Notes under the pieces: generated by a model | What the model saw: only the letters and a program-made list of their open reading frames with translations | What the model was told of the DNA's origin: nothing | Database searches by the model: none | NCBI GenBank assembly: GCA_964058805.1 | Contig: CAXKVV010000506.1 | Coordinates: 1 to 33,103, forward strand | Length of the DNA: 33,103 nt | Reading direction: 5' to 3' | Source of the DNA: Schoenoplectus triqueter | Lineage: Eukaryota > Streptophyta > Magnoliopsida > Poales > Cyperaceae | Position numbers and translations under genes: made by a program | Part shown: positions 2,489 to 32,215 of the stretch, piece after piece | Layout: every line of letters starts with the position of its first letter | How positions within the stretch are numbered: position 1 is the first letter of the stretch

Positions 2489-3655
2489 TAGAGGTAGCAG
2501 AATCCGAACCGATCCGAAAAATTCATCTGACCCGTTATAGTCCAATACGATTCAAAATCTGAAATAAACCGACACTGAATGACCTGATAACCGATCCAAC
2601 CCGATCTAATACAACTCAAAATCCGAAATGACCCAACACTATGATCCAATACCTAACCCGATCTGAATGTCCTGAAACCCGAAATGATCTGATACCCGAC
2701 CCGATCTGATACAACCTGAAACCTGAAATGATCCAACACTAGATGATTTGATATCTGACCCGATTTGATACGATCCGATAGTAAAATTCTTGTAATTGTG
2801 GTTAGAACTTGGATGAATTATGAAAACATTATCTCCAGGCTCCAGCTCACGTTCTTGAAAACTTAGACGTGACCTCCGCAGGTCCCGTGTAAATATCAAA
2901 TAAGTTGAATAATTTAATTATTATTGTGAATAATAACTTATTTAATTTAAATAATAAAGTTAATATTAATTATAATATTAACTATGATATCTATTAAATT
3001 TTTTTCAATCAACAATTCAACATACTTTTCAAATGAAACTTGTATTGTATGGATGACGAATAATTGAGGATTGAGAAGACAAATTATAAATACAAAAGAG
3101 TTTAATTCAATTGAAATTAAGGTGAAACATGCATGACTCAAATATACATCACTTAGATATTTAATTTGATATGATTCATCCGATATGACTAGATCAGGCA
3201 CATAGATGATGAAATCTGATCTGATCCGATCCGATCTAGTCTGATATGATTTAAAACCGAAATGATCCGACATTAGATGATCTGATAACCAATCTGACCT
3301 GACCTTATATGACTCGAAACTCGAAATGACTCGACACTAGATAACCCGATAACCGACCCAACCCGACCTGATACGATTCGAAACCCAAAATGACCTGACA
3401 CTAGATGACCTGATAACCGACCCAACCTGACCTAATATGACTCAAAATCTGAAATGACCCGACACTAGATAACCCGATAATCGACCCGACTCGACCTAAT
3501 ATGACCTAAAACCTGAAACAACCAGACACTAGAAGACCCGATATCCAACCCGACCCAACCCGACCAGACCCGTGACCCAACAATCTTATTAAATTAAATT
3601 GATCCAACCCAAACCCGAACCCGAACCCGCCCGACCCGTCCGATTGCCACCTCTA
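2489..3655. mobile_element. hAT-like non-autonomous element with TAGAGGTRGCA ends and a 64-bp tandem-repeat interior
   Basis: The left end reads TAGAGGTAGCA and the right end is the complement of TAGAGGTGGCA. The interior is rich in GACCCGA/GATCCGA words in two blocks (about 2500-2795 and 3185-3645), separated by about 300 bp of AT-rich DNA. The flanking 8-mers (ATAATTAG and ATCATATT) do not match, so no target duplication supports the ends. The hAT assignment rests on similarity of ends and word density to the better-supported elements at 23804, 15438 and 29523. Confidence 0.5.
3205..3560. repeat. 64-bp degenerate tandem repeat (about 5 units)
   Basis: The motif GACA[C/T]TAGA starts at 3269, 3333, 3397, 3461 and 3525, exactly 64 bp apart each time. 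The unit runs through GATAACCGACCC, then GACCTGATATGACTCGAAA, then GAAATGACC. Further copies with the same 64-bp step lie at 2571 and 2635 in the left block of the enclosing element. Confidence 0.9.
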
Positions 3656-5067
3656 ATCATATTGATCATTCTTTGACTTGATCTGACATGACATTACATG
3701 AAAAAAATAATTCTTTCAAACCTCCCATCTACAGCTGGGGCATCTTCTTTCACCACCGGCATATCTGCTGTATCTGCAAAACTATCTTACCATCTCTCCA
3801 TTTCCTGAGTAATGGTCATCTTCATTTATCGGCTAATATAAGTAAAGGATACAAAGTAGTTCTTATAAGAATGTTTGAACATAAGAGTTTGTTCATGGTT
3901 GAAAAGTAGAACAGCAAAGTTAAGAGAATGGAAGAAGAGGGTTTAGCTGTATTTCTCTTTTAATTTAGAATAAATAATATTTTCTAATAGAATTATTATA
4001 GGACATTTATTTGAAGGGCATAGAAGAAATGATTATAAAAATCAATGGTAAATAAGAAATTTGACTGAAAGGAGAGAAAACAATTTGAGAGGTTTTGAAG
4101 AAATTAAGCCTAATTTTATTGTTTCGATTATTACATCATCCGATTTTTCAAATTAATCTTAACTAAATCCCTGTGACAGTTCGCTCAAAGTTTTAATCCG
4201 CATTGCAGATTACAGAGATATAGTTGAAAATAATAATATACGTTTAATAAGACACTTTCGTATTTTTATTTTAATTTGATGAGACATAATGTAACTGAAC
4301 ATAGAAATATACGTTAATAAATTAAAATTTTATATTAGTATATTATTGTATAAGGTTCTTTGACCCAGTTACAGTTTCAATCGTTTAAGTTTGATTGAAA
4401 TGTTGTGTCAACAAAATATCACACAATCACTTCCGTCTAATCAAATGTCTCTGCCAGCATGATTTGCACAAATTTTGTTGAGATTGGCCAAAAAACCCAT
4501 CATTCCTCCCACTTCCATAAGCATCAAACAGTCGGAAAACAACACAGCATGAAAATAAAACACTTCTAAAAGATCAATTTCAGTACTTTCGTGTTCAAAT
4601 TAACTTCTTGGGAAAGAAGATTAGACTAGAAATGGAAGCCAGAGAGCCAGTATAGTATATATGTTCTTTTTGTTGAGATGAATCATTTTTTTTCCTTTTG
4701 GATAAATAGGACGACGCGTGGTATACCATAATATTGTATAATCAGTAGGAGGAACTAACAGTTTGGAATTGTACAGGAGAATAACAATAATGTTCTGCAA
4801 AACTCTTTTCTGTCAAGCCTACTGCTGGCTGTCAAGTGAATATATATATATACGTCCAAAGGCTGTAAAAGGATATAATTGAAATATATATACACCAAAT
4901 TGCTGTATGAAAAAGGCGGGCTTATTCACACAAGTAAAAAAGTTAAGTCGTTAGCATCTATAGTTAGATGTGTCTGCTGCATCTGTACTGTTTTCAAGCT
5001 ATATCCAAGTATCAACTTATGGGTTTGGCCTTAGGACAATAGCAAAATTAAAGATCAGCTCAGCTCT
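3656..5067. other. downstream flank of the Sec14-like gene, no other gene recognised
   Basis: AT-rich with scattered short frames lacking recognisable domains. The part nearest 5067 presumably contains the 3' UTR of the minus-strand gene. No clear AATAAA on the minus strand stands out apart from one overlapping the last codons. Confidence 0.5.
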
Positions 5068-13794: not shown

Positions 13795-14020
13795 TAGAGG
13801 TGGCAAAATTTATTTGATTTGAGAATTTTATCTTGTGATTTAATTTGATTTTTTTAAATAAGACCAACTTGATGTGACTCAAATCTGATCTGATTTAAAA
13901 TAAAAAATATAATCTAATTAAAATAAAAATTAATATATAGATTGACTCGATTCTAATCTGACTAATTCGATTTCTTTCAGAAGACCAAATTGATTCGACC
14001 CGACCTACCCGAACTCAAAC
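13795..14020 (+). mobile_element. truncated element related to the 2489-3655 family
   Basis: It begins with TAGAGGTGGCAAA, the same terminus as the element at 2489-3655, and continues with related degenerate words (GATTGACTCGATT, CGACCCGACCTACCCGA). The expected right end (TGCCACCTCTA) is absent. The sequence changes near 14020 into an LTR-like fragment, so the element looks cut off there. Confidence 0.4.
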
Positions 14021-14276
14021 TCAAGCTGTCTCGTCCAATTACAAGTTTAGTACCAAGCCGGTCTGAGGCCCCTGAGAGGAAACTCCTACAAATCGCCAAA
14101 AAGGCTCAAGCTCGGGCCTGCTTCTCACAGGAGGAAACCGCCCTGACACCAGTTGACAAGAACCACACTACGAACCCAATAAGTTGAGATATTATCTGTT
14201 TTACTGTTCATCTGTCCATTTTCCTTTTTTTTCAATGAACTATTCAATATATTTTTTACAGTACTATAGAGAATAG

Positions 14277-15356: not shown

Positions 15357-15437
15357 GGCCGAGAAAGGGATTGGTTTTTGAGGAATCCTCATTCCATCAT
15401 TACTAGAGACAAGACAATAGTCACACACTCTACTCTC

Positions 15438-16070
15438 TAGGGCTGCACAAAAAAGATCGGGCTCGTGGCTCAGCTCGGTCTCGAGCTAATCTAGCTCGAG
15501 CTAAAATGACTCAAGCTAATTTTAGCTCGAACTAATCTGGCTCGGTAGTTAAATGAGCCGAGTTTGAGTTGGTGTTGGCTCGGCTCGTGGCTCGACTCAG
15601 CTCGAATAAAAAATATATTTTTTGCTGAACTCTAATCTGATAACTCTTCTCTCATTATCTCTCTTCATATCACCCGGCTTAATGACGTCTTTTACTCACT
15701 CGTAATTAGATTTATATATCTGACTCAATAATTTTTTATTGATCTATCCATTCAAATTAATGCATCAAAAATATCATTGAAAATATAGTTTGTTGATATA
15801 CTAACTTTGTACCAACTCTTATATCAATCTTCTAGATATACCAACTTTATAGTTTATAGATGTACTAAATCTAAATGTCAATTTGAGTCAACGCACATGC
15901 ATTGGCTCGTGAGCTAGCTCACGAACTAGCTCAAATAGTAACGAGCCGAGTTTGAGCTATGTTTTTCAGCTTGAAGCGTTTCATGAGCTCGGCTCGACTC
16001 GACTTGAATTTTTATGAGCCGAGCTTGAGCTAAGCCCAACTCGGCTTGACTCAACTCATTTGCAGCCCTA
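15438..16070. mobile_element. hAT-type MITE packed with GAGCTCGGCTCG-like words, 8-bp TSD
   Basis: 633 bp. Both ends read TAGGGCTGCA inward, and the flanking 8-mers are identical (CTACTCTC at 15430-15437 and 16071-16078). Eight-base target duplication and TA-start termini are typical of the hAT superfamily. Roughly 150-190 bp at each end is dense in GCTCGAGCT, GGCTCG and GAGCCGAG words on both strands; the centre (about 15610-15890) is plain AT-rich DNA. It has no coding capacity and sits inside the LTR-like fragment, so it is younger than that fragment. Confidence 0.9.
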
Positions 16071-16234
16071 CTACTCTCATCCTTGATACAGACTATCCAC
16101 TTAGGATATGTTGTACCATCCTGTTTGCTAAGTGGGTCAATTTGTCTCAAAGAAAGTAAATCATTGCTAATACATTATTCCATTCTAATACATTTATCTA
16201 AACTGCATACATTAGCACGTGGGGTGAATCAATC

Positions 16235-16885
16235 TGTTAGAATTTATTATTATTAATTACAATATGTATGGGGTTATATGTAATAAATATATATTATATA
16301 ATGGACTGTCAAATTATATTCATAATGAACTGATCAAATTATGTATCGGGTTTATTATATGTCATGAGAAGTGGACCTTTTAATGTGTAGAATGTGTATT
16401 AATGATTTTATGATTAAGTGATGGTCTGAATTATATAAAGTCTGATAATAATACAATTATGTTATTGGTCCCAGGAGAACATAATTATAGGCAGTTTTCT
16501 GATTAAGCAACGAACTCGTTAAGAGAGTTTTGGATCCGATATGGATCCGCTAAGATATAACTGCTCTCAGTTATATGGGTGTCCATTATATATAGGGATA
16601 CTGTTGGTTTTCGAAACCATTCTTATTTTCTCCATTTTTCTGCCACCCTTTCGTTTCCCAACAGAGATCCATCTCTCTCTAAACAGAGTTCCAAAAGAGA
16701 ATAAACTATTTGTGCCAGTCCTCTCAATCACTCCATCGGATTAGAGAAAAATCGTTGGAAGACTAAAGGAGTCTGGTGATCAACGGGGTTGTATCTCTCT
16801 AGAAGATCGACAACATGGATCAAGGTAATATAATTTATGATTTGGGGTTCACTAGAGGATCACTGCCATATAAAAATATCTAATA
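16235..16885 (+). repeat. 5' LTR of a Ty1-copia retrotransposon
   Basis: 651 bp, beginning TGTTAGAATT and ending ATATCTAATA. It is collinear with the 3' LTR at 19050-19699 and roughly nine-tenths identical by eye. It contains a TATATAAAG-like promoter motif near 16434. It is followed immediately by the primer-binding site. It ends in TA rather than the canonical CA in both copies. Confidence 0.9.
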
Positions 16886-16887
16886 AT

Positions 16888-16900
16888 TGGTATCAGAGCC
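16888..16900 (+). other. primer-binding site complementary to initiator-Met tRNA
   Basis: TGGTATCAGAGCC, three bases after the 5' LTR, is the standard plant copia primer-binding site matching the 3' end of tRNA-iMet. It fixes the element as an LTR retrotransposon on the plus strand. Confidence 0.92.
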
Positions 16901-17041
16901 TTCTATAGTAGAACTGTTAAGATCTGATGACTGATTCAAAAATTTCTCAAAAATTCAGACTTTTTAATTGGATATGTTATTTTAATCAAATAGTTTATGA
17001 ATAATTCAAAAATATGTAGATCTGTTTGTTAGAATTAAATT

Positions 17042-18166
17042 AAGTCATATATCGATAAAATTCTCAAGCGATATGGTATAGAAAATTATAAACCAGAAAA
17101 TACCCATGTTGCTAAAGGAGACAAGTTTAGTCTTGATCAGTGCCCAAAAATAGAACTCGAGAAATAAAAAATGCATCAGATTCCATATGCTTCATTAATA
17201 GGAAGTCTTATGTATGCTCAAGTGTGTACGCATCCGGATATTGTGTATATCACAGGAATTCTTGGTCGCTACCTCAGTAATCCTGATATGAATCACTGAA
17301 AAGCAGCCAAAAGGATACTAAGGTACTTGCAAAGAACGAATAATTATATGTTAACATATCAGCGATCAGACCAGTTTGAGGTCATTGGGTATACTGATTC
17401 CGACTGAGAGCTCAGTCATGTATGAAAAAAAATTCCATCTAAACAATTTAGAGAAATAGTTAAGAGTTTAAAAACTCAGTAGGTTACTCCTATTTCACCT
17501 ATATCGATTGATCCGGGTGAAAATCCCACTTAAAGGCTGGTGGTAAATCATCGGGGTCTTCGCACGCGCCTCAATAAACCAAAAAATCAAAATCTTAGGG
17601 TAAACAATTTACGCTGCTTATGACTAAAGTTCCATAAAACCGACGAATCGCCAGGTTCGAGAATAAGGTGGGATCCTTTTTATAATCCAGTTCAAGCAGA
17701 ACTAGCCAACTGTGGGTTGTGTGGATAGCTTAAAGTCAACATTCGGTTATATTTTTATGTTGGCTGGAGAAACTATTTCTTGGAGGAGTGCAAATCAATC
17801 CATGATTGTCTCCTCCACCATGCCAGCCAAATTCATTGCATGTTTCGAGGCATCGAACCATGGAATATGTCTAACAAACTTTATCATAGGGCTGCGTATT
17901 ATGGATACTATTAAGTTACTACTTAAGTTATATTGTGACAATAGTTCAGCAGTGTTGTATTCTAACAACAACAGGATTTCGTCGAAATCTAAACATATCG
18001 ACATTAAGTTCCTTGCTGTGAAAAAGAGAGTTCATAGTGGACTTATAAGTATTGAGCATATTGGTACAACTTCCATACTAACAGATCTACTGACTAATGG
18101 ATTGATACCCAAACAGTTTCATGAGCATGTCGCTCATATGGGTATATATGTTACAAAGGATTATTA
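17042..18166 (+). pseudogene. copia pol remnant: RT C-terminus and RNase H, interrupted
   Basis: The first part reads YIDKILKRYGIENYKP, then QIPYASLIGSLMYAQVCTHP, then KAAKRILRYLQRT and FEVIGYTDSD, with in-frame stops near 17167, 17297 (a conserved Trp position) and 17410. After a ~290-bp insert the frame resumes at 17712 (CVDSLKSTFGYIFMLAGETI) and stays open to 18165, with YCDNSSAVLYS, SKSKHIDIKFLAVKKR and a C-terminal FHEHVAHMGI. RNase H normally uses the Glu of an xAEF/xAEY motif; here it reads PAKF, so a catalytic residue is lost. The open 3' half could mislead gene predictors, but it is a dead retrotransposon fragment. Confidence 0.88.
17411..17702. other. ~290-bp unrelated insert within the copia RNase H region
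   Basis: Copia coding sequence breaks directly after GATTCCGAC (the DSD codons) and resumes at GGTTGTGTGGATAGC (GCVDS). The intervening sequence has no coding match and is less AT-rich than its surroundings in places (around 17510-17580). It has no clear terminal repeats or target duplication; a small hairpin (AGTTC..GAACT) lies next to the right break. Origin unknown. Confidence 0.6.
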
Positions 18167-18596
18167 GGTTGAGTGGGAGTTTGTACTTATATTTCATTTT
18201 TATATTTTATATGATATACTTTTTCAGATATTATGTAGTAGTTCTTATATGATATTCTATGATTTCGTATGTATCATGCAGTTATTCAATTATTCAGTCA
18301 TTCAGTTTTATATACACTCTGAACTTATAATTGATCTCAAATTTAGAATAATTAAAGTGACCAAATTGAAAATAGGCATGTGGATCACATTGCATGTAAT
18401 TTTCAAACTATACATTCCCTTTATGATTCATGTCATTCAGTTATATTTATATCGTGATTTGTGTTAGTTTAGTTTCGCTTTATGAGATGAATACTACATA
18501 AGTCCTTATAAATATGATTGATGGACGAAATTGGATGATGACATAAAATGTTAAGAAAGCACAGTTAAGAGTACTCAATTCAGTGTATATATATAG

Positions 18597-18977
18597 AGTA
18601 AAGATACCGTGAGCTTAAGCTTACGAAGGTCTTCCGTGAGCTTAACTCAAAAAATATATCAAATCATCTCTAAATTTTAATTTATCATTCTCATTAAATT
18701 CTTTATATGAAAATCTCATGGGATGCAAAAATTTAGAGCGTTTTGAGCTTTTTAAGTCGTGATTTTTAATTTTTGAAAATCACCTCTAAAAATAATAATA
18801 AAAATTTAATATTTGAACATCATTTTAGAAAATTAAAAATGGTGGGTTAAAAAGCTCAAAATGCTCCAAATTTTTACATCCCATGAGATTTTCATATAAA
18901 TAATTTAATGAGAATGATAAATTAAAATTTGGAGATGATTTGATATATTTTTTGAGTTAAGCTCACGGTATCTTTAC

Positions 18978-18978
<1 letters not shown>
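18597..18978. mobile_element. 382-bp foldback MITE forming one long hairpin
   Basis: It starts AGTAAAGATACCGTGAGCTTA and ends with the exact complement. The two arms are complementary for essentially their whole length (about 150-180 bp each) with few mismatches, apart from a roughly 27-bp extra segment in the left arm near 18618-18644 that repeats GTGAGCTTAA. No coding capacity. It sits between the copia pol remnant and 3' LTR in TA-rich DNA, so a target duplication cannot be read. The arms are much better preserved than the host element, implying a more recent insertion. Confidence 0.9.

Positions 18979-18980
<2 letters not shown>

Positions 18981-19020
<40 letters not shown>
18981..19020. 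repeat. (AT)20 microsatellite
   Basis: Pure AT repeat directly after the foldback MITE, inside the copia element. Confidence 0.95.
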
Positions 19021-19022
<2 letters not shown>

Positions 19023-19049
19023 CAGATACATATAGACCAAGTGGGAGAT

Positions 19050-19699
19050 TGTTGGAATTAATTATTATTAATTACAACATGTATGGGCTTATATGTAATA
19101 AATATATATTATATAATGGATTGTCAAATTATACCCGTAATGAAGTGATCAAATTATGTATCAGGTTTATTATATGTCATGAGAAGTAGACCTTTTAATG
19201 TGTAGAATGCATATTAACGACTCTATGATTCAGTGATGGTTTGAATTATATAAAGTTTGATAATAATACAATTATGTTATTGGTCCCTGGAGAACACAAT
19301 TATAGATAATTTTCTGATTATGCAACGAACCCGTTAAGAGATTTTTGGATCCGATATGGACCCTCTAAGATATAATTGCTCTCAATTATATGGGTGTCCA
19401 TTATATATATGGATATTGTAGGTTTTCGAAACCATTCCCATTTTCTCCATTTTTCTGCCACCCTTTCATTTCCCAACAGTGATTCATCTCTCTCTAAACA
19501 GAATTTCGGAAGAAAAAAAAACTGTCTGTACCAGTCCTCTCAATCGCTCCATCAAAGTAGAGGAAGATCGCTGAAAGGCTAAAATAATCTGATGATCAAC
19601 AGGATTATGTCTCTCTGGAAGACCAACAACATGGATTAAAGTAACATAATTTATGATTTGGAGTTCATTAGAGGATCAGGCATATAGAAATATCTAATA
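19050..19699 (+). repeat. 3' LTR of the Ty1-copia retrotransposon
   Basis: 650 bp, collinear with 16235-16885, starting TGTTGGAATT just after the polypurine tract and ending ATATCTAATA. The many substitutions between the two LTRs indicate an old insertion. Confidence 0.9.
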
Positions 19700-20300
19700 C
19701 TTTCAACCACCAACCGCAATGTAATCTATGTCTATCTAGAAAAACAAGTGAAATTTCATGCATGTAATCGTGGTGACTAGGTTGTAGCTCATTATTGCAC
19801 TAACCCATCAACAATAAAGCAATGAGAGCCCGTGATCTCCAAAAAAAGATGGGACGGATGCTTGAAGCATGCAGATTATGTGCCCACTCACTTTTAGGAA
19901 CTGATTCGCATCTCCGGTTCGAGCTAACAAGTTCCTCCCGATGAGTCGATCACCCAGTTGATTGGAATGAAAATGGTGCTTATTTTCACGGTATTAACAA
20001 GATTCCTATAATTGAAATGTGATAGTTTCACCCAAATAGAAATCAGATATTTTAGTCATAGTGCCACTGCGCTTGAAAATTTGAAATTTCTAAGAGTTAG
20101 ATCAAATTAAGACCATCCAACTTGCTTGGATGACTCTTTATTAAATTTTTACTTTGTCATTTCGCCGTTTCCGAAGGTACAACGGCATATCGAAATTTCT
20201 GATGTGCTACTGCTTTCAAAGAAGATGACAATTTTATTTATCATTTTGAAGTTACTTATAAAGAATAAATTAAATTTGGGTTAATCTTACAGAAATTATC
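19700..20300. other. non-coding stretch, nothing recognised
   Basis: Mixed composition. 19840-19960 is less AT-rich but has no convincing frame. No repeats or RNA genes seen. Confidence 0.4.
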
Positions 20301-20308
20301 TCAATATG

Positions 20309-20642
20309 CAGTGACGAAACCAGACAAAGTTTGAAGCAGGGGCCAAATTTATTTAAAACCAATAAAAAATATTGAATTAAAAACTTTTAAATAAACAATA
20401 TCCAAGCTTGAAAATAAATATGTCGTCTCTTGTGGTGGTTTTGAAAATTTTCTAAAGTATCTCTCTATAATTTTTAGAAATTAAAAATGACAATAGAAAT
20501 TAAATTTACTCAAACTATGCATACTTTACAACTTTATAAGGTAAGAAGATATCAATCAATCAATTAAATTACTCTAACAATCAAAGTTAAGAGTAAAGAG
20601 CAATTGAGGGGGGGGGGGGGACCCTCTCTCCCTCCGTCACAA
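20309..20642. mobile_element. hAT-type MITE with perfect 8-bp TSD (TCAATATG)
   Basis: 334 bp. The left end reads CAGTGACGAAACC and the right end, on the opposite strand, TTGTGACGGAGGG, sharing GTGACG. TCAATATG occurs immediately left (20301-20308) and right (20643-20650). The termini resemble those of TTF/ZMYM1-type hAT elements (CAGTGGCGRA...), whose dead transposase is seen at 14445-15063. The interior is AT-rich and non-coding and includes a G13 tract at 20608-20620. Confidence 0.85.
20608..20620. repeat. poly-G homopolymer (13 G)
   Basis: Thirteen G near the right end of the 20309-20642 hAT-type MITE. Similar elements often carry G-rich subterminal DNA. Length may be unreliable. Confidence 0.95.
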
Positions 20643-21060
20643 TCAATATGGATCTATCCAATTCTTGAATAGTACTCATAATAATTAAATTAAGTAAAAT
20701 TTTAATTATCTAAATAATAATAGAATCTAAAAAATATAAAATTTGATCTACAACTAAATTTTTATATAAAAATCATTTTGACCCCATTTGAACTTTGAAA
20801 ATGAAGAAATAGAAATTACATAACTCCAAATAGAAATTACATAACCGGTATTATTTATGGTGTTCATCTCCGTCAAAATATCATAATATAAAAATATCCC
20901 ATCAAAATTCATTATATTTTCTTATAATCTTCTTTCTATCCTTAACTTTTTTTTATTTTGTTTAAGAGTATTAAATTTACCATTTTATCCTACTCTGCAG
21001 CGGAGATGCTTTTTTTTTTTACAGCAGAACCAAGAATAGAATATTGATTTATTTATTCTC

Positions 21061-21466
21061 CAGTTTTTTTTGTATATAATAATTATATTATTAATAATAA
21101 GAGTGATAAAAATAAAATTTGAAATCTACGAATGACAGCGCGCCACTGACAGTCACGTCTTTGTATAAAATAGTGTAAACACGCCACTGGCAGTGGCGCG
21201 TTTGCTCTTACTCATCCTGATAACGATCCATTACCATTGGATCAACATTACTACTGACGATCAACCACCAAAAACGTCATTGGTAGTGACACGTTTACAA
21301 AGACGTCACTGCCAGTGACGCGTTTGCTCTGTGCCACTGCCAGTGGCGCGTTTGCTCCGTGGCACTGCCAGTGGCGCACTGCCATTCGTAGATTTCAAAT
21401 TTTACTTTTATCACCTTTATTATTAATAATATAATTATTATAATTATTATATACAAAAAAAAACTG
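21061..21466. mobile_element. long-TIR MITE (Mutator-like) with palindromic CACTGCCAGTG repeats, 9-bp TSD
   Basis: 406 bp. Arms of about 80 bp start CAGTTTTTTTTGTATATAAT and continue to CTACGAATG, nearly identical apart from a 9-bp insertion in the right arm. The flanks are TTTATTCTC (21052-21060) and TTGATTCTC (21467-21475), 8 of 9 bases equal, which fits Mutator-like transposition. The interior carries about six copies of a 28-30-bp unit centred on the palindrome CACTGNCAGTG followed by CGCGTTTGCTC. Short minus-strand frames over these repeats are not genes. Confidence 0.85.
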
Positions 21467-21475
21467 TTGATTCTC

Positions 21476-22779
21476 TTGTTCCTCAAAATGCATTGTGTCG
21501 TACTTTGAAGATGGTTCTCATTGGTAGTTTTGAACCATGATTATTGGATATGAGTTTGTGGCACAAAGGGACCAACTAATAATGTATCATGTATTAGGTA
21601 AGGATTGTGATTTTAACTGATCCGTTATATTAGATTGAATCATGGATTTGTGTTTTTTTCAATATTAATTATCTTGAGCTAGCCGTATACATTCAAATGT
21701 GATATATTTTTTTCAAATTTCTATGCATAATTTGTCGTGTAATCAATAAAATAATTATTTAAGAGTTAAGTTTTCACTTTGTACTTTAATTTTTGCTATG
21801 TAATTTTTGTTATGTTTTTTTTTGTTTCGTTTTGTTTTATGGATGTAATATGTCATTCTTTTTTCAATATTAATTATCTTATGTTTTCCTCCTATGAGAT
21901 GTAACAATATTTAATATTTAATTTATTATTCATATTTAATGTTGAATTATCTTTATTCATTCATATTTATTAAATTTCAATTATAGAGTTGTAATGTTAT
22001 TAATATTATGTTTAATATTAATAAAAAACATATTAGGTTATTCAATTGAAATCACAACCTGTAAAAACTCACATAAAAATTATATGGATCGAGTTGAGTT
22101 ATGAGTGGGTCAACTAATTTTTTTTTTAAACGTGATTAACCAAATTGGGTTCAAATTTTGATAAAAATTCATTAACCTGTTCGTTATACACCCCTAATAT
22201 TGATATAAAAATACTGAACTTATGTTTTATGAATGGATTTTACATCTCCGATTAATCATCTTTATAACAGTAAGAATCGGATATTTAAGCATGAATCCAA
22301 TTGTTTGATACGTGAATTGTTTTCTAAAATATACTTGAACCAGTTGCCTATTAGTACTCAAGTACCTTAGAACGAGAATCAGCGGAGAGGAAAAAGAAAA
22401 GAATAGAATAAAGCTACGAAGGAAATAAAGGAGTATTCTCAGTCTCACATTCTTGTTTTGTGCTATAACATAATAAAATGGACATATTCATTTTGAAGAA
22501 AGGATTAAAAGTTACATTCCGTACATAAAAAAAGATTAATAAGAGTAAGAGGTTAAATAAGAGAAGGGAATAACATAAAATACAATAATTTTGATGTAGA
22601 TAATAAGATATTGTCGTGTTTTGATAATTACATTATTTTTATGAGTTTAGCAAAAATTAACTATTCGGATTTGCTGAGACTGGGACTCAGAGCAAAAGAG
22701 TTTGTACTTGCATTCCAAAAAAGAAAAAAAAATGTATAGACCCGACAGTCTTGCTCAAGTTAAAATGCCTGGTCCATAA
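21476..22779. other. AT-rich stretch with one orphan transposon end
   Basis: No gene recognised. At 22180-22196 the sequence reads, on the minus strand, TAGGGGTGTATAACGAA, the terminus type of the hAT-like MITEs here. Nearby words (GATCGAGTTGAGTT, GGGTCAACTAA, AACCAAATTGGGTT) resemble decayed subterminal repeats. I could not find a matching left end. Confidence 0.4.
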
Positions 22780-23042
22780 GAGCATCCGTATTTCATTGTC
22801 AAGTTGATTGTCAAATCTCATTTGATAATTGTCATTTGAATTTTAGGGATGCAAAAACTAGGCAAAATTAGATAATTGTTTAAATTTGACAAGCCACGTC
22901 AGTGAAAAAACAAAAAATTAATTACGAAAGTGTCATTTTGACAATTTCATTATATTCAGAGATGTCACTCTTAAAATAAATTGTTAATTGATGATATGAT
23001 ATAAAAATTTAATTTTAACGGTCAATATCAATGTGGATGTTC
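22780..23042. mobile_element. Tourist-like (PIF/Harbinger) MITE, TAA target duplication
   Basis: 263 bp. The left end is GAGCATCCGTATTTCATTG and the right end, on the opposite strand, GAACATCCACATTGATATTG. TAA flanks both sides (22777-22779 and 23043-23045), the typical 3-bp TWA target of PIF/Harbinger elements. The interior is non-coding with TTGTCAA/TTGACAA words in both orientations. Confidence 0.8.
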
Positions 23043-23339
23043 TAATAAATACACGTCTTTCTTAATTGGATAGTCGCCGTTATCTCTTGATCAATATCAA
23101 ATTGCAAGCACACAAGAGAATTCGCTTTTTAACCTTTCGTATGATCAGAACGGAGGAGCAAAGTGAGAGAAGAAACGAGTTGGCGAGAATTAAGGAAGCT
23201 CAAATCGCGATTGTGAATTTTCCATAAAAAGTGAGGTATTTGACGAGAATTGCTCCGTCAGCGAGATACTTCTAATTTTATTCCGTTTTAATAATTGGTG
23301 GAGAGATGAAAAGAAACGGAAGAGAGATGAAACTGCGAA

Positions 23340-23600
23340 GTTCACAACAAGATCTTTCACTCACAGTTAGCAAGAACTCTCAAAAAGAAAAGAAATTAAG
23401 CTGAAAATACTTAATTTTCTAATAAACTGAAAGAAAAACAGAAACAGAACAACCAAAAGTCAAAGAAAAAACAAAGATATTCAAGACATTGATTTTATTA
23501 TTCAACACATTCAACATTCTGTCTGTTAAAATCAATTAGCCTTATATAGGCAACTATACTCCGTAACTAACTTGTAACTAACCAATATTACACTCTAACA
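23340..23600 (-). repeat. probable solo LTR on the minus strand
   Basis: Read on the minus strand from 23600: it starts TGTTAGAGTGTAATATTGG, then has CCTATATAAGGC (TATA-like, about 23540), then AATAATAAAATCAATG (polyadenylation-like, about 23490) and a T/C-rich tail. This order (TG start, TATA box, AATAAA) is that of a plant copia LTR. I did not find the other LTR, internal domains, the exact 3' end or a target duplication. Confidence 0.5.
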
Positions 23601-23803
23601 AACAAAAATTATTATACAATTATTATAATTTTGAATAAGCTGAAGTGTTATAACGATTCTCAAATCAAATCGTTATAAAGCGTTATACGCTTACCAAACT
23701 ATCACTCCCACCCAGCTTCTGCTTGAACTACGCCCAAATAGTTATAACGTTTGGATATAGCGTGGTAACAGTTGTCAACTATTTCTTTTTCATTACACCC
23801 GAC

Positions 23804-24161
23804 TAGGGCTGTCAATAAATTTCGTTTCGACCGCGTTTCGTTTCGTTTCGTGGTAACGAAACGGTTAACGAAATGAATTTCTGTTTCGTTTTATTAAACG
23901 AAACGGTTAACGAAACTGTTTTTTATTTCGCGAAACGGCCGAAACGGTTAACGAAACGGTATTTTCATTTCGTTAAGAGTATTTCAGTGTAAAATTCCGT
24001 TTCGACCGCGTTTCGTGATAAATGAAACGGTTAACGAAATGATTTTTTGTTTCGTTTATTAAACGAAACGGTTAATGAAACCGTTTTCTGTTTCGTTTAT
24101 TAAACGAAACGGTTAACGAAACGACACTGTTTCGTCACCGTTTCGGCCGTTTGACAGCCTA
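23804..24161. mobile_element. hAT-type MITE packed with CGAAACGGTTAACG words, perfect 8-bp TSD
   Basis: 358 bp. The ends read TAGGGCTGTCAA and, on the other strand, TAGGCTGTCAAA. CACCCGAC occurs directly on both sides (23796-23803 and 24162-24169). Nearly the whole interior is made of GTTTCGTT, CGAAACGG and the palindromic GTTAAC in both orientations; at least eight plus-strand AAACGG and about four complementary copies can be counted. AAACGG is the known core bound by maize Ac transposase in its subterminal regions. No coding capacity. Confidence 0.93.
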
Positions 24162-24169
24162 CACCCGAC

Positions 24170-24522
24170 CTCTCATTAATTTGTCCCAATCCGTCCAACC
24201 CACAATACTATTATAGATTCTCTAAAAAAAATATGTTCTAACCTGACCCATCAAACTCATCAAATCATCCAACCTATGAACCGACCAGCACTTTGGACCA
24301 TTTAAATTTAACTGACCCGCACCGATCCCTCAAGCCTGTAATAACACACTAGTCGCCAGTTAATTTGCTACCCACCATCTTTCTCTAACAAAACCAAACG
24401 GGGATCCTATTACTAGGTCTTCTGATCCATCCGATCAATATTCGGTCACAAGAATTATCCGATACCTTCCGTTCTACAACAGACGGTCTAATGTGGAATG
24501 TGGATCAGAAACTCCAATCCAT
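24170..24522. other. non-coding stretch between two hAT-type elements
   Basis: No gene recognised. The part at 24240-24340 has weak CTGACCC/GACCCGC words like those in the 2489 and 29523 elements, possibly older debris of the same type. Confidence 0.35.
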
Positions 24523-24530
24523 ATCTACAC

Positions 24531-24841
24531 CAGAGGCAGAGCTTCATTGGGACCAACCTGGGCTATGGCCCCCTGGATTAAAATTTCTTCTTCTTAAGGA
24601 TTAGTTAAACCCCCAACTCATTCCAGCCTAGTTTATTTTCTGATGTTGCGGTACTTTTTTTTTTCATTTGAGGGGATAGCAGGGTAGGACAAAAGAGGGC
24701 ATTGGAAGTAGTATCCATTAAATTAATTATAAGAGAGAGAAATCTATTTGAGGGGATAGCTGCGTTTTTTTTGTTTAGATAAAATGAACAGTGACTAAAT
24801 TATTCGGCCCCCTCTTACTTTTCATTGAAGCTCCGCTACTG
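24531..24841. mobile_element. hAT-type MITE with TTF/ZMYM1-like ends and near-perfect 8-bp TSD
   Basis: 311 bp. The left end is CAGAGGCAGAGCTTCATTGG and the right end, on the opposite strand, CAGTAGCGGAGCTTCAATGA, the terminus style of TTF/ZMYM1-type hAT elements. The flanking 8-mers are ATCTACAC and TTCTACAC (7 of 8 equal). Interior non-coding; GAGGGGATAGC occurs twice (about 24671 and 24750). Confidence 0.85.
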
Positions 24842-24849
24842 TTCTACAC

Positions 24850-25350
24850 TATTGTAGAGGATCCTAAACATACTATCTCGATGGGGCAGACAGCCGCGGC
24901 AAATGAGACATCAATCCGTGAAGAAAGGTGGGACCCACCGTCCGGGCCGATGGTGGGGGCATATCCGGCGAAAAGAGAATCTGGTCGTCTTGTAGACTGC
25001 GCTAAAAGCGCCTTGTCTTTTTCGCCTAAGCTCTGATTCGAATACATAATTAAACTCTGGTTTTAAATTTTTAATCAACTAGCGCTCGTCCTTTTCCTCG
25101 TGCTGTCGTGTTTGATTAGAATTTAGAAAACATCACGACTATTTATGCTCCAGATTTCTCAATTAACAAGGGTCATTAGGTACAACAAACTCCGAGCCAT
25201 CGACATCCGTGCGAGGAAAACCTTTTCGTAATCTCTTTTCAGTTTTCAAAAAGAAAGATAGATTTTCGAAATACGAAGTTATATTATATTTAGTGTTTAG
25301 ATTCTTCATCGCACATGTGTATGGTACTTCATTCTAAAAAATAGTAATTA
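24850..25350. other. locally GC-rich stretch without a recognised gene
   Basis: 24880-25025 is the most GC-rich part of this half of the window (GGTGGGACCCACCG, GGGCCGATGGTGGGG). Open frames exist on both strands here, but neither shows a domain and both are short. It could be a relic promoter or exon of a lost gene. Confidence 0.35.
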
Positions 25351-25655
25351 ATACGTCCTAGATTCAAACACCATTTCGTATGAAAGAAATGAAGTGTAAG
25401 AGAGTTTGCAAGTGTGTGTGGAGAGTGAACGAGAACTATTTCTGATTTATATGCTTTATGTGTATGTGAAAAATTAAATCTCTTCTTCAGTCCTAAGCAA
25501 AGTCTTATATAGAAGTTATAGAGATAATGATATGGAATACACATAATTATGTCTAATTATAACTGTTGTATATGATCATGAATAATTACGAAAACTATTG
25601 TACTCGAGATGAACATCTTAGAGCCAAGTATTTGAGGCTAAGGTAATTGGACCTT
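25351..25655. repeat. diverged ~0.3-kb direct repeat, copy A
   Basis: It runs from ATACGTCCTAG through GAAGTGTAAGAGAGTTTGCA and GTGAAAAATTAAATC, a TATATAGAAG box, to CTAAGGTAATTGGA. Copy B at 26986-27295 keeps the same order of blocks with many substitutions. The TATA-like box inside would suit an old LTR, but canonical LTR ends are not visible. Confidence 0.75.
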
Positions 25656-26282
25656 CTAATTTGGAGAAGAGGTCGGATGGGGTTAGAGTTTTTGATGGAG
25701 AACAATTAATTTGGAGCAGAAATTTTTATTAGTTGAGGCGAATTTAATCAGCTGCACTGATTTTTCGGAGAGACGGATAAGATTTCGCTCAAATAATCGG
25801 GTTTATAGCGTTGCAATCAGATTTTTTTTTGGACGGTAGACACTCTGTCTCTAATTAGTCGTTGTAAGAAACACATTTTGTTGTAGTGCTATTTTTCAGA
25901 AAGTAACCAATGTATCACGCGTCAATTTGTGAAACCAATAATGTATTTGTCATAACATCTCAAGAAATTTAATTATTGCACCATACTGAAGGTGGTGGTT
26001 ATATTTTTAAATTATATTCCCAGTCTTATGCTTGTATCCTTCTTGGATGGAAGATCATGCTTCGACATATGCACGCATTAGTAATGACAGAATTTATATT
26101 TTCGTCACTTGTAATCCTTGTAATATTCTTTATATATTCCTGATAGTTTTAATGAGAATTAAATGAAGAAGAAATGATAGAGATCATGTGAGGTAATGGC
26201 ATATTTTATGAGAGATCATGGAAGTTAATGACCAGCTAATAACCGATTAATGAGAGGGTAAAAAGTATCATCCAATTGTTAT

Positions 26283-26510
26283 AACCTTTTCTCTCTGATC
26301 GAACTCCTACAGGAGAGTTATTTTGTATATTATTGGATTTTATATTCGATATTTATAGCATTTACTAATAATATCGCTTTAGTAACTCTTGAAAATAATT
26401 CACAGGAGAATTATAGCATTTACTAATAATATCGTCTAAGTTATGAATTTGGTTGAAACTTTTTCTTTCTGATCGAACTCCTACAGGTTAATTATTTTGT
26501 ATATTGTTTA
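26283..26510 (+). repeat. local interrupted tandem duplication
   Basis: The block CTGATCGAACTCCTACAGG, followed by a TTATTTTGTATATT run, occurs near 26296 and again near 26469. Between them, ATAGCATTTACTAATAATAT also occurs twice (about 26356 and 26413). Two overlapping small duplications explain the pattern. Confidence 0.75.
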
Positions 26511-26985
26511 TGATGGTACAATGACCAACCTCATATACTTTTTCGCTTGATACTCCAATATTGTATTTAATTTAATATAACATGTGTAATACTATCAATA
26601 TATCAGCATCCGAAGACAGTGATATTATCTATATTCTAATTGAAGTGTAAGTTGACTAGGCAGGGTTAACCTATGCCTTTATCAAATGTTTCGTATGTTG
26701 TCAGTTTTGTTTTCATTTTAATCCATGTCTTTCTGCGGATTGGATAATTCTACCTTCACAAAAGATATGTTAATCTATGTAGAATAAAGAAAGATAGTAC
26801 CAAAATTGTGCTTGAGGTCTACAGAAAGTAGATGGTATTGAGACAGCGAGATAAGTAGCATGACGATCATGAGATTCTCTCCATAGATGTTATGAAAATC
26901 ATATGCCGCCATCAAAGTTTTCAGCGAGACAGATCCGTCATGTCCCTTGACCTTGTTGTTGATGAAGGTTTGAGTACGGTGGATG

Positions 26986-27295
26986 ATACGTCTTAGGTTT
27001 GGGTATCAGACCATATGAAAGAGATGAAGTGCAAGAGAGTTTGCAAGTGTGTAGGAGGTATACAAGAGTTATTTTGAACTATATATTTTTTGCGTGTGTG
27101 AAAAATTGAATCCCCTGTTCAGTTCTAGGCGTGACTTTATATAAGGAGAAGAGTCATAAATATTATGATAGAATGCACATGATCATGACTAATTAATATG
27201 TTATATGTGATATATTATGGACGGTTACGAGAATTGTTATACTCAAGATGAGCGTTTTAGAGTTAAATGTTCATACCTAAGGTAATTAGATTTTC
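26986..27295. repeat. diverged ~0.3-kb direct repeat, copy B
   Basis: Counterpart of 25351-25655: ATACGTCTTAG, GAAGTGCAAGAGAGTTTGCA, GTGAAAAATTGAATC, TTTATATAAGG and CTAAGGTAATTAGA in the same order. About 1.3 kb separates the copies and shows no coding domains. Confidence 0.75.
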
Positions 27296-28885
27296 GAAAA
27301 CACAACTAATAATAAATGAAAAATATGGTACTTTCAATTCCATATGTATTTTTTCTTTTCGGAAAAAAGTTTGGAGTCTTTTCCATTTAGCTGAGAGCCT
27401 CGAACGCAAAATGACTTTTAGATAATTTTTACGTGCATGTGCACTGGTGGTTTTAATATTATTCTAACTCCACTGTCGTTGAGAGAGAATTAATAAATTA
27501 ACGAATCCTAATAATATCTGAATATATAATAGCTGCAGAACAATTACACACTGTTTTTAATCAATAAATATTAATTTTGTCTTATTATCGTGCAACTAAA
27601 GCTTTAATTATAAATAAGCCAGAGAAATTGAACGGCGAGCCTTTTTGTTTAAAGTTCATATAATTTCAATTAATAGAAGTTTGTAATGAACTGTTGGCAC
27701 TTAGCAGTGTCGTGATTATCCACCTCTGACGCTCTGGATAAGTAACCTGGAGCTAAAATACATAATTTTTTTTTCTTATAAATCCTTACTCATATACTTC
27801 ACGGAACTGTCGATCTCAATTCTCTCCCATAATAAATTGCTTAAAACCTTCTCTCAAAAAAATAAATAAAATAAATTGCTTAAAACCAAATCTTCTATTT
27901 TGTTATAGCTTGAAAGCTGCATCAATCACTACACGGTATCAGAGTACTGTGCCTGTGCGGCCCCACAGCTTCAAGTCAGTAACAATATATATAGTCAGTC
28001 AGTGAAATCATGAAATGCAGTTCTTTGTTCTTTTCTCTGATTTCAACGTTCAAATTCCACATGATTGTTCCGTGTTTATACACAAATCAACTTTTGATCT
28101 AATGACAAGGATAATATTTGATGATAGATTCGAAATCCGAATGAAATTCTTTATGGACAATAATTAAGTGATAAATAATTTATACTTTCATCTTTGTTTT
28201 AAAAAAAGAACAGATGCGCACAAGCACACAAAGAAAGAACAATTCCCTTAGTTTGTTAATTTCTAAAGAGCATATTAATAACACCGGCTAAACTATTTAA
28301 AAAAATTACCATATAATGGTTATCCTCAAATCTTGATAATGAGATTTTTAATAAATCCAAAAAACCATTAGAAGATCTTAAAAATAGAAAATTATTTATA
28401 GGCATATTGTCAAATTAACTTAAAATATAGATGAATTATATTTCAATTTTCATGTAATTTTGATAGTTGTTTGATAGTCTATAAAATTATTAAATTAGAA
28501 CTATTACAAATTGATACAATATTGATGAGCTATCAAATGATGGTGAAATTGGTGAGTTATATGAAATTTCAAACACTATCAATCTATGAGTTCAAAGATG
28601 TATATTAACTTTTTTCTATTTTATTTTTTTCAAATTCATTTGAAATCCTATTGTCAAGCAGTAGCGGATGTTTAGAGAAAATTAAGAGGTCCAATAATTT
28701 TTAATTAATTATACTAAATAGATAGGACCATTTATACCTCCAAATAAATTTTGGCTTAAAATAACAGAGTAATAATAATTTAGGGTGGTGGTGATGGGGG
28801 TTGTTCGTCTTCAACGTTTCCTCCCTGGAAATAGGGTATATATAAAAAGCTACCTCTGTAAGTTCAATCAAATAGGTTAATATAG
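27296..28885. other. AT-rich non-coding stretch with possible transposon-end fragments
   Basis: No gene recognised. CGGTATCAGAGTAC at 27935-27948 resembles a copia primer-binding site with changes; no LTR pair supports it. CAGTAGCGGATG at 28659 resembles the left end of TTF/ZMYM1-type hAT elements, but no right end was found. Confidence 0.35.
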
Positions 28886-29031
28886 GTATATTTTCACTCA
28901 TCCTAAAACACATCTAATTAAATGTTCGGTTCATATATGTATATTTTCACTCATCCTAAAATACATCTAATTAAATGTTCGGTTCATATATGTATATTTT
29001 CACTCATCCTAAAATACATCTAATTAAAATG
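28886..29031 (+). repeat. 53-bp tandem repeat, about 2.8 copies
   Basis: GTATATTTTCACTCATCCTA starts at 28886, 28939 and 28992, exactly 53 bp apart. The copies are nearly identical (one A/C difference noted in the first), so the amplification is recent. Confidence 0.95.
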
Positions 29032-29176
29032 CTCGTCGACGACTGTTATTTGTTTTTTCACTTATTAGCGTGTTTGATATTTTCTTAAACATAGCGTTTA
29101 TTTTGTCAAAAATAGTTTTAAATTTTATATGCATTTTCCGAATCATCTTAAAATACAAACTTAGCAATTGTATAAT

Positions 29177-30225
29177 GGAAGAATTCGCCTTTTATCCTGA
29201 ACTTAAAAAAATAAAGGTAATTCTTAAACTCTCAATTGCACCAAATTGATTCTTAAACTTTTTAAAAATATCAAGTTCAACCTTGAACTTCGTCAAAAAA
29301 AAAATTAAATCAGTCCTTAAACTTTAAAGTACATCAAACAAATCTTTAAACTTTCAGTTTAAAAAATAATTTAGTCCCTAAACTATCAAAAAATGACTAA
29401 ATAAGTTTTTGTTTTAACATTATTTTTTATTTCCTAAATTTAAATAAAATCGAAATAAAAATTTATTAAAAAAATAAAAAATACTAATTAATATATGGAC
29501 AAAGAATCTACAGCGCATGACGTAGGGAATTAATTATTGACTAGACCCGATGAGTTAACCCAACCTGATTTGAACCCGACCCGATCCGATATGATCCGAA
29601 AATAAATCGGTCGGGTATGGGTTTAATTTTTTTGACTCGAATCAGGTCTGGTCGGGTTCGAGTCAACCCGACCCGACCCGATTAATTATATTTTTAAAGT
29701 AATTTTGTGATTTAGTACTAATTAAAACTTAAATATATACTAATTAAGATTAATTATAAATTACTTAATATCTAATTGCTTAAAATTATATAAAAATTAT
29801 TAATAATTAATTAATTTATTTATACATATCGGGTCGGGTCGACCCGTGACCCAATCGGGTCGGATCGATCCATGACCCGATCGGGTTGGATCAAGAAAAA
29901 TATTAAAATAATTTGACCAGACTCAACAATTGACACCCCTAGCATGACATGAACCATTAATAACTGATCAATTATTACACATAAAATATACACATTGATC
30001 AAATTAGTTTTTTTTTTAAGTTCAGGGATTAAATTAGTATTTATATTAAAAGCTCAATAAATTATTTAGTGCACTTTAAAGTTTAGGGACTAATTTTTTT
30101 TGGAGAAGTTTCAGGACTAGTTTAGTATTTTTTAAAAAGTTTAAGGATGAACTTGGTGCAATTAAAAAATTAAAAACTAATTATTTTTTTATAAAAGTTC
30201 AAAATTTAAAAAGGTTAATTCATCC
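29177..30225. mobile_element. long-TIR Mutator-like non-autonomous element with perfect 9-bp TSD, carrying a nested MITE
   Basis: 1049 bp. TTGTATAAT flanks both sides exactly (29168-29176 and 30226-30234). The ends read GGAAGAATTCGCC and, on the other strand, GGATGAATTAACC. The arms continue as an imperfect inverted repeat for several hundred bases, with blocks such as AATTGCACCAA, CCTTAAACTTTTTAA and AGTCCCTAAACTTTAAAGT present in both. A 9-bp duplication and long arms fit Mutator-like elements. The interior is split by the hAT-type MITE at 29523-29941. No coding capacity. Confidence 0.85.
29523..29941. mobile_element. hAT-type MITE with CCCGACCCGAT words, nested in the 29177-30225 element
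   Basis: 419 bp. The ends start TAGGGAATTAATT and TAGGGGTGTCAATT (opposite strand). The flanking 8-mers are GCATGACG (29515-29522) and GCATGACA (29942-29949), 7 of 8 equal, as for hAT. Subterminal DNA is dense in CCCGACC, GGTCGGGT and GTCGAC words in both orientations around an AT-rich centre (about 29680-29825). It interrupts the larger inverted-repeat element and so is the younger insertion. Confidence 0.82.
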
Positions 30226-30234
30226 TTGTATAAT

Positions 30235-30408
30235 TACATCAGTGGCAAAGGCAATTTTTTTTGAATGAGGTTCAATAATATATTAATTTATATTATAATA
30301 TTAAATTTAAATAAGTTATTGCACCATAATATATTAATACAATCATTTATTTACACAATATATTTTTTGGGTTCAAACATAAAAAGTCTAAAAAATGAAC
30401 TCAATATA

Positions 30409-30441
<33 letters not shown>

Positions 30442-31368
30442 TAATCATTTGACCAACTTATTGTACCATAATATTAAATTTTTCCTAGGACAACAATTTG
30501 AAAGCAAAAATCAATTTTGAATTCAAATCTAATATAATAACAAAACTAGCTTCTTGAGAAGAAATTTGGACTAAATAATATTAATCATTTTGCAAAATCA
30601 AATGAGCTGAATTATTTTAATCCATTTTTATTTTTTGAGCATATTTGTTACATCACCTAAAGAAGTGGACAAAGAAATAATTTTATAAAGTATTTCTTCT
30701 CATGAAGGTACAGGGATTGAATTGTCTATTTGCTACCTTTCAATCTCTAAAGAATTTAAGAAAAATGTTAAATAAGTAAAATATTTCATAAGAGAATAGA
30801 GATTCATTAGTAAAATATTATATAAATTTTATGGGATTTACTAATGAAACATTATATAAAATTTATGGATTCAGATGCATATAATTATTGGAAATTAAAC
30901 TATTGTTAGTATAAATTTTATTAATATAGTAACAATAATAAAGTATATAAATTGCATACGTGTTTGAGGGTTAAAGAGAACGAATTCAACAATTAAATAT
31001 ACACATTTATTTTTCCTTTTTATAAAAGGTTGAGAAAACAGTTGAACATATAAGAACATTCACAGTTTCATACCTGAAAAATATCTAAATTTACCAACGA
31101 AACTGCAATTATTTCCGTAGGACTGAAGGAAAACCAAATCCGATCAGGGTATGATACCAATACCATCATTATTTTATTTATTTATTTACTTTTGCTAGGC
31201 CAAGTCTTTGACGGCAACCTCCAATGCAAATTATGCAGTGCTCGACGTGGACCATATCAGAAACTGAGAAGAATTCCTCAAAAAAAAAAAACCTGAGAAG
31301 AAAAAACAGAATAATTTTCTTCTGACAAGTTGGAGGAAAAAAAACAGAAATGTGACAGTGGCAGTCCT

Positions 31369-31372
<4 letters not shown>
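30235..31372. other. AT-rich stretch, no gene recognised
   Basis: CAGTGGCAAAGGC at 30240 resembles a hAT left end without a matching right end. A (TA)n/(GTAT)n microsatellite lies at about 30404-30441. Nothing else stands out. Confidence 0.4.
30404..30441. repeat. compound (TA)n-(GTAT)n microsatellite
   Basis: A short TA run passes directly into about six GTAT units. Confidence 0.95.

Positions 31373-31412
<40 letters not shown>
31373..31412. repeat. (AT)20 microsatellite
   Basis: Pure AT repeat. The Ile-Tyr runs it encodes in overlapping frames are not protein-coding. Confidence 0.95.
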
Positions 31413-31414
<2 letters not shown>

Positions 31415-31547
31415 TTAATTTTCTCGGAGCAGCCAACGATGATTTGTCGCGCTGTGTCTTATTCTACATGGCTCCGGATGCTCTTGCTAGCAGACGGCGA
31501 CCATACAGTCTCCAATAACGTGACTCCACCCTCTCCTCTCCGTCCAT

Positions 31548-32215
31548 TAGGGTGTTAACGGATAATATTCGATTTTATATTACGATTTGAAAAATGATAA
31601 AAATTATTCAATCCGTATTCGTATCCGGAGATATCCGTATCCGAAATTTTTTACGGATGCGAATACGATAAGACTCTTATCTATCCGTATCCGACCGTTT
31701 AGCTATTATTCATCAATATCCAACATTATCCGAAGGTATACGATCTGAATATGTATCTGAAATATTTCTATTATATATTTTTTAATTAGATTTTTATCAT
31801 TCATTATAAATCTAATTTAATTTATATTTAATTTATGTTAATGTATCATATTTTTTATAATTCATTGATACATTTAAGCTACTAATATAATAATAATTAA
31901 TATTTAAAATTTATAATTAATAATTTTATCATAAAATACTATGTAATTTTTTTTTTCAATGATACATATAATATTTTTATTTAATATCCGAAATATATCC
32001 ATATTCGTATTTATATCCGTCCGATATCCGATCCGTATCCAGTATCCATCGAATATCTGATCCGTATCTGATATCCGTCGAATATCCGATCTGTATCCGT
32101 ATCTGAATTCATATCTGAATCTGTATCCAATAATATTCGTATCCAGATCCATATCTGAAAAATTATAACGAATACAGATACGATAAAAACATTATCCGAT
32201 CCGTTTACAGCCCCA
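31548..32215. mobile_element. hAT-type MITE packed with GGATATCCG-like words
   Basis: 668 bp. The left end is TAGGGTGTTAACGGAT and the right end, on the opposite strand, TGGGGCTGTAAACGGAT. Both ends are dense in TATCCGTATCCG, GATATCCG and GGATACGG words in both orientations, with an AT-rich centre at about 31770-31980. The flanking 8-mers (CCGTCCAT and TCCCACCC) do not match, so the target duplication is lost or the ends are slightly misplaced. The family call rests on termini and word architecture shared with 15438, 23804 and 29523. Minus-strand open frames here are repeat artefacts. Confidence 0.7.

Follow-up and report, generated by a model that had tools for sequence, protein, structure and literature searches.

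In maize Ac, clustered, CpG-containing subterminal AAACGG hexamers are bound by the transposase, and Ds1 elements, which are short Ac derivatives, keep only the terminal inverted repeats (TIRs) and a few hexamers (PMC3260210). Herves, Tag1 and Tol2 are further precedents for subterminal sites, with family-specific, repeated and transposase-bound motifs in Tag1 (AAACCC/TGACCC) and Herves (CGATTCAT) (PMC3143072). The BED domain of Hermes is another precedent (PMC10368747). BED-domain proteins derived from hAT transposons have diverse array-measured motifs, often with CGG or CGC, and for four proteins encoded by hAT elements the motif matches subterminal sequence of the encoding transposon (PMC8097297). 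The principle of family-specific subterminal sites is known, and what is added here is a set of families and their breadth within one genome. We analysed a 33,103-nucleotide stretch of the sedge Schoenoplectus triqueter (contig CAXKVV010000506.1, our C497; hereafter the window), which carries four short hAT elements, A to D, each crowded with a short repeated word. With a probability of roughly 80%, judged from sequence, they represent four families whose words are predicted transposase sites at both ends, as expected if a BED zinc finger of the transposase recognises them.

Element A (15438..16070, 633 bp) has the ends TAGGGCTGCA/TGCAGCCCTA and the word CGAGCC/CGAGCT, and is flanked by an exact target duplication, CTACTCTC (8/8; 15430..15437 and 16071..16078). 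Element B (23804..24161, 358 bp), with the ends TAGGGCTGTCAA/TTTGACAGCCTA and the words CGAAAC and GAAACGGTTAACG, likewise lies between exact copies of CACCCGAC (8/8; 23796..23803 and 24162..24169). Element C (29523..29941, 419 bp) has the ends TAGGGAATTAATTATTGAC...ATTGACACCCCTA, the word GACCCGA/TCGGGTC and the flanks GCATGACG/GCATGACA, which agree at 7/8 positions. Element D (31548..32215, 668 bp) belongs to a family with the ends TAGGGGTGTAAACGGAT and a word best written TATCCG or ATCCGTAT; its window copy lacks a target duplication and terminates on the right in CAGCCCCA. No strand is assigned to these features. Being 358–668 bp long, multicopy, non-coding (none of the three open reading frames of at least 110 amino acids in the window lies inside them) and bounded by TIRs, A to D are miniature inverted-repeat transposable elements (MITEs), that is, non-autonomous hAT transposons of four families. 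The initial annotation had called them hAT-type MITEs, and their hAT-type ends, 8-bp duplications and short, multicopy, non-coding nature bear this out; the 8-bp duplications, which it listed where preserved, are exact around A and B and 7/8 around C, and the window copy of D has none.

Copies of all four families were found in the genome sequence searched (82.1 Mb in 2086 contigs; loci and contigs are given below as L and C numbers). Forty places were scored per family, counting the window copy, out of 338 candidates for A, 73 for B, 1095 for C and 222 for D. At eight A loci, window copy included, the duplication at the aligned ends is 8/8 in six, 7/8 in one and 2/8 in one. Five C copies, read by eye, gave 7/8 (L120), 6/8 (L122) and three without duplication at the aligned ends, and three D copies, also read by eye, gave 8/8 (L124, GCCGTCCC), 7/8 (L125) and none seen (L126).

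Repetition of the words exceeds that expected from dinucleotide composition. Taking the highest count of any CpG 6-mer as the statistic and 500 dinucleotide shuffles of each element as the null model, we observed counts of 8 in A (shuffles: mean 3.0, maximum 6), 20 in B (6.4 and 11), 13 in C (3.3 and 6) and 14 in D (6.0 and 12), with 0/500 shuffles reaching the observed count in any of the four, so that each element is indeed crowded with its own word. When CG was not required, the top 6-mers were CGAGCC, CGAAAC, ACCCGA and CGGATA, respectively. Among same-size stretches of the window outside A–D, 5/279 match the count of A, all overlapping an element at position 2489 described below, and 0/292, 0/290 and 0/277 match those of B, C and D. 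In the loci compared, CGAAAC occurs 357 times on both strands in 13.7 kb covering 30 B elements with 60 bp on each side, compared with 16 times in the surrounding 83.5 kb (26.0 versus 0.19 per kb), and the A words occur 201 times in 5.2 kb of eight elements and 6 times in the 23.3 kb around them (38.4 versus 0.26 per kb). The A and B words are thus about 140-fold denser in the copies than in their flanks, and similar density outside the elements, which the initial annotation had named as the outcome that would speak against it, does not apply to these loci; confinement is only partial for C, since GACCCG arrays also occur in elements with different ends.

Such repetition could also arise passively, the words being products of slippage or tandem duplication and mobility depending on the terminal repeats alone, which we consider unlikely. 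B does show a repeat spacing of about 41 bp and an internal 165-bp duplication, C contains one 26-bp tandem pair, and certain Ds1 elements remain mobile without AAACGG hexamers (PMC3260210); yet the word is kept in diverged copies, with 4 to 22 CGAAAC in each of the 30 B loci. The same repeats uphold, for B and for one pair in C, the proposal that site amplification built the elements, but no regular repeat unit was seen in A or D. Self-complementary cores, proposed for all four words, are well represented in A (AGCT, 15 occurrences) and B (GTTAAC, 5), but not in C (GTCGAC, once) or D (GATATC, 3).

Transposase-bearing relatives were sought through the hAT dimerisation domain; 150 of 273 candidates were scored, and 150/150 lay above the cut-off. 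We read the 3′ flanks of 54 loci (30 from this search and further ones) and located the element end in 35 (37 were named by eye, of which L067 and L075 were not relocated). In these 35, the word array and the end lie approximately 0.65 to 1.3 kb after the dimerisation domain. By CpG 6-mer profile, A is nearest to L042, L050, L043, L056 and L063 among the 35 ends (0.63 to 0.45, then 0.10) and B to L054, L062, L055, L052, L065 and L048. The A-type element in C300 (C300:4929-9524 of G000, 4596 bp, duplication ATTAAACC on both sides) is collinear with A at both ends: positions 1-162 of A match 1-171 of the element (71% identical, E 1e-21) and 482-633 match 4444-4596 (66%, E 2e-8). Similarly, B 2-194 matches the left end (67%, E 4e-18) and B 217-358 the right end (66%, E 6e-13) of a B-type element in C149 of G000 (approximately 3487 bp, duplication GGGGTGGG on both sides, the true left end falling one base ahead of the coordinate entered in the computation). 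The C300 element has one 736-amino-acid frame spanning the BED and dimerisation domains and including an RNase-H-fold match (PF02892, PF05699 and PF14372), which identifies it as a hAT transposase. The C149 frame, of 359 amino acids, matches only PF02892 and PF05699; with no RNase-H-fold match found in it, this copy is damaged, and we call it transposase-bearing rather than autonomous. The alignments support the view that, for A and B, the same genome holds transposase-bearing hAT elements with shared word and ends; the initial annotation had regarded the absence of any such element as refuting. A and B were presumably moved by transposases of the C300-type and C149-type clades, respectively. 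CGAGC-rich stretches lie just beyond both ends of the 4.6-kb A-type element in C300 (L077, L042), which may have inserted within another A-type sequence.

Three further transposase elements were bounded: L039 in C22 (3880 bp, duplication GTTAGATA on both sides), L044 in C656 (3388 bp, GTTTCTAG on both sides) and a B variant in C39 (3803 bp, CCCACGAT/ACCACGAC, 6/8). Related words are present at both ends of 5/5 bounded elements, and in the four in which they were counted, 41/46 words are no more than 260 bp from an end, a placement that speaks against passively generated repeats.

A protein search with the A-type transposase gave 2280 matches among 7979 scored proteins; of the 120 listed, those in the top 19 that carry a species name belong to sunflower relatives and sedges (57–69% identity), and a JGI entry reaches 92% identity across 56% of the query. 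The nearest named relatives in public records are called RICESLEEPER 2-like. Like maize Ac/Ds, the elements studied here have short TIRs, 8-bp duplications, subterminal clusters of CpG-containing hexamers and short derivatives, and AAACGG itself occurs 12 times in B, both strands counted. In contrast to Ac/Ds, the words of A, C and D are different, the A partner has RICESLEEPER 2-like relatives, and the ends are of the TAGGG type: the 11-bp Ac terminal repeat is not matched by the ends TAGGGCTGCA, TAGGGCTGTCAA, ATTGACACCCCTA and GTTTACACCCCTA of A–D. Family-specific repeated subterminal motifs are shared with Arabidopsis Tag1 and mosquito Herves, but those are single families in different organisms, whereas by our grouping about a dozen apparent word types occur in one genome. 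The CGG-binding hAT-derived proteins likewise pair BED domains having diverse motifs with their own subterminal regions; the taxa considered from that work are animals and a fungus, measured on arrays, whereas the plant elements here are known from sequence.

Different hAT clades carry different words. The A clade (L042, L043, L050) has CGAGC arrays and the ends TTTGCAGCCCTA or TTGCAACCCTA. The B-clade array word is CGAAACGGTTAACG, and three variants exist, AACGAAACGGTTAAC with end TTTGACAGGCCTA (L052, L054), AACGAAACGTTCA with end TTTGACACCCCTA (L048, L055) and AACGCAACAGTTAACGC with end TTAGACACCCCTA (L062, L065), in clades 76–82% alike in the dimerisation domain. Other arrays consist of TTCGAA with end GTTTACAGCCCTA (L046), ACCCGAC with end GTTTACACCCCTA (L039), TACCC with end ATTGACACCCCTA (L044), GACCCG with end TTTTAATACACTA (L069 and others), TACCCG with end GGCAATCCTCTA (L071) or GGCAAATCACTA (L068, L100), GGACCG (L070) and CACGGCACG (L073, L092, L096). 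A CpG 6-mer reaches at least 5 copies per 250 bp in 31/51 hAT 3′ flanks compared with 9/66 control flanks, for which the test probability of 2e-6 is only a guide, since members of the same family do not count as independent observations. The 51 flanks exclude L061 (204 bp), L076 (a nested element rather than a transposase flank proper) and L086 from the 54, and retain L052 and L054 despite the C-like array beyond their own B-type end; the flanks of L085 and L093 were too short for use. The control flanks come from 27 B loci and 6 A loci and are close to other elements. Scored without the CG requirement, 20/35 arrays lie above the 95th percentile of the 216 control pieces.

Words also follow the transposases that they accompany. 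Across 11 families, among them close relatives up to 90% alike, word similarity correlates with identity of the dimerisation domain (Spearman 0.59, 0/5000 permutations), four families of a second hAT lineage remaining outside because the pattern did not find their domain. Relatives may still have different words: L046 and L042/L056 are 75–81% alike in this domain and carry GTTCGAAC and GCTCGAGC, a change from the latter to the former being one transition per half-site. The correlation over the 11 families counts against passive duplication of the words. The second lineage (L069, L070, L071, L073, L090, L091, L092, L094, L096, L097, L099 and L101) has TAGTG- or TAGAG-type ends and the related but distinct words GACCCG, GGACCG, TACCCG and CACG; the one N-terminal protein piece submitted from it had no Pfam match.

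The words are also rich in CG, which is part of the most over-represented 6-mer of 15/19 hAT arrays (representatives picked from the 35, related ones among them) compared with 47/216 control pieces, and the observed/expected CpG ratio is 1.10 to 3.32 in A–D, compared with 0.78 in control flanks. Both figures would suit a different role for the words, namely as sites for host proteins that silence the elements or drive their expression (readers of CpG methylation, or transcription factors), with the transposase reading the terminal repeats only. We hold this to be highly improbable: a common reader would favour one word, whereas the words differ by clade and track the transposase, and arrays exist whose top word lacks CG (L044, L049, L041 and L098). 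These four arrays also limit the earlier statement that all words contain CG, which is true of the other 15.

The orientation of the words differs among families. ACCCGA is found 16 times on the plus strand and 0 on the minus strand in the element at 2489, and counts on the two strands are 19:0 in the inner element of L076, 8:0 in L039, 13:1 for TATCCG in D and 0:6 for ATACCC in L044. With nearly all words on one strand, the word has the same direction at both ends despite the inverted terminal repeats. In C, the words are mostly inverted between the halves (6:2 in the left, 1:4 in the right), and CGAGC in A and ACGAAAC in B are on mixed strands, AACGGTTAACG in B being 5:0. A tentative and rather doubtful extension is that one genome keeps a whole set of hAT transposases, each paired with its own site, and that the words change stepwise along the transposase tree, mostly retain a CpG through which host methylation could gate them together and obey family-specific orientation rules. 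If true, the code by which BED fingers recognise DNA could be deduced from natural sequence.

The partners of C and D are less clear-cut. By word profile among the 35 ends, C is nearest to L097, L099 and L039, and D, weakly (0.30), to L044 and L045. A 17-bp end, ACCCATTGACACCCCTA, is common to the C-family copies L005 and L120 and to L044, the window copy of C differing from it; the D-family end GTTTACACCCCTA is also that of L039, and the left end of L044 contains the 15-mer TATCCGATCCGTATC, likewise present in D. An exact end-pattern search returned 16 places of D type and 185 of C type, the latter being pattern matches rather than confirmed C copies, and 0 with reversed controls. Compared by eye, 1/16 D-type ends lies on a contig with a listed transposase domain (C266, approximately 40 kb away), and in the listed part of the 185 C-type ends the end of L044 itself is the sole one no more than 1.5 kb downstream of a same-strand domain. 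A protein search with L039 gave no partner for C or D, and three further candidates (C853, C803 and C1801) were rejected, their 3′ stretches having no word array or hAT end on reading, as were L052 and L054 as carriers of the C word, the C-like array sitting beyond their own B-type end. In the sequences compared, the partners of C and of D are mixed, neither element having a single one. We take this to place both in the same part of the tree as L039 and L044, their precise helper probably lying outside the sequence read; C and D would have used relatives of these transposases.

Taken as transposase sites, the words suggest the following course of events. The N-terminal BED zinc finger of a related element's transposase would bind the word of its family, and repetition of the word at both ends would gather several subunits before cut-and-paste transposition, which would then leave the 8-bp duplications. 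By analogy with Ac, Tag1, Herves and Hermes, a transposase whose recognition site is short may gain grip from repeated subterminal sites and multimers, with the ends cut afterwards. Several observations weigh against this reading. At the 5-copy threshold, 20/51 hAT 3′ flanks have no array, and 15/35 arrays are not above the control 95th percentile for repetition. The missing RNase-H-fold match of the C149 frame counts here as well, a damaged gene being what represents the B clade, as do the top words without CG in 4/19 arrays, the close relatives within the 11-family correlation and the absence of the second lineage from it. No collinear transposase-bearing partner for C or D was found among nine sequences compared. 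Finally, GACCCG-type words occur with the ends TAGTGTATTAAAATCG, TAGAGGTGGC and TAGGGGTGTCAA, and as ACCCGAC in L039; with a word common to at least three distant end types, the original idea that each word is the site of a different transposase is too strict and does not survive in its one-to-one form.

Two further elements, of the TAGAGGTGGC type, lie in the window. A fifth element, TAGAGGTAGC...GCCACCTCTA, occupies 2489..3655 on the plus strand (a start at 2486 is possible, in which case the flanks ATCATAAT/ATCATATT agree at 7/8), and at 13795..14060 on the plus strand (end approximate) there is a decayed element of the TAGAGGTGGC type, of which the left end is present and a right end was looked for and not found. 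Their suggested membership in the set is accordingly qualified: the first is an element, but with TAGAGGTRGC rather than TAGGG ends, and the second is a left end only. A further TAGAGGTGGC element, in L076 (C541:17286-19200), is 328 bp long, carries 19 one-strand ACCCGA words and is nested in a D copy. Elsewhere in the window, the open reading frame at 17712-18167 resembles a Ty1-copia RNase H fragment, and the one at 8964-9317 on the minus strand resembles a single exon from a gene for a Sec14-like lipid-transfer protein.

Few hAT transposases have had their subterminal sites measured. The genome studied here offers a set of candidate transposase/site pairs, with many clades having their own readable word, so that both the BED zinc-finger recognition code and the rules by which MITEs and helpers cross-mobilise become directly testable.

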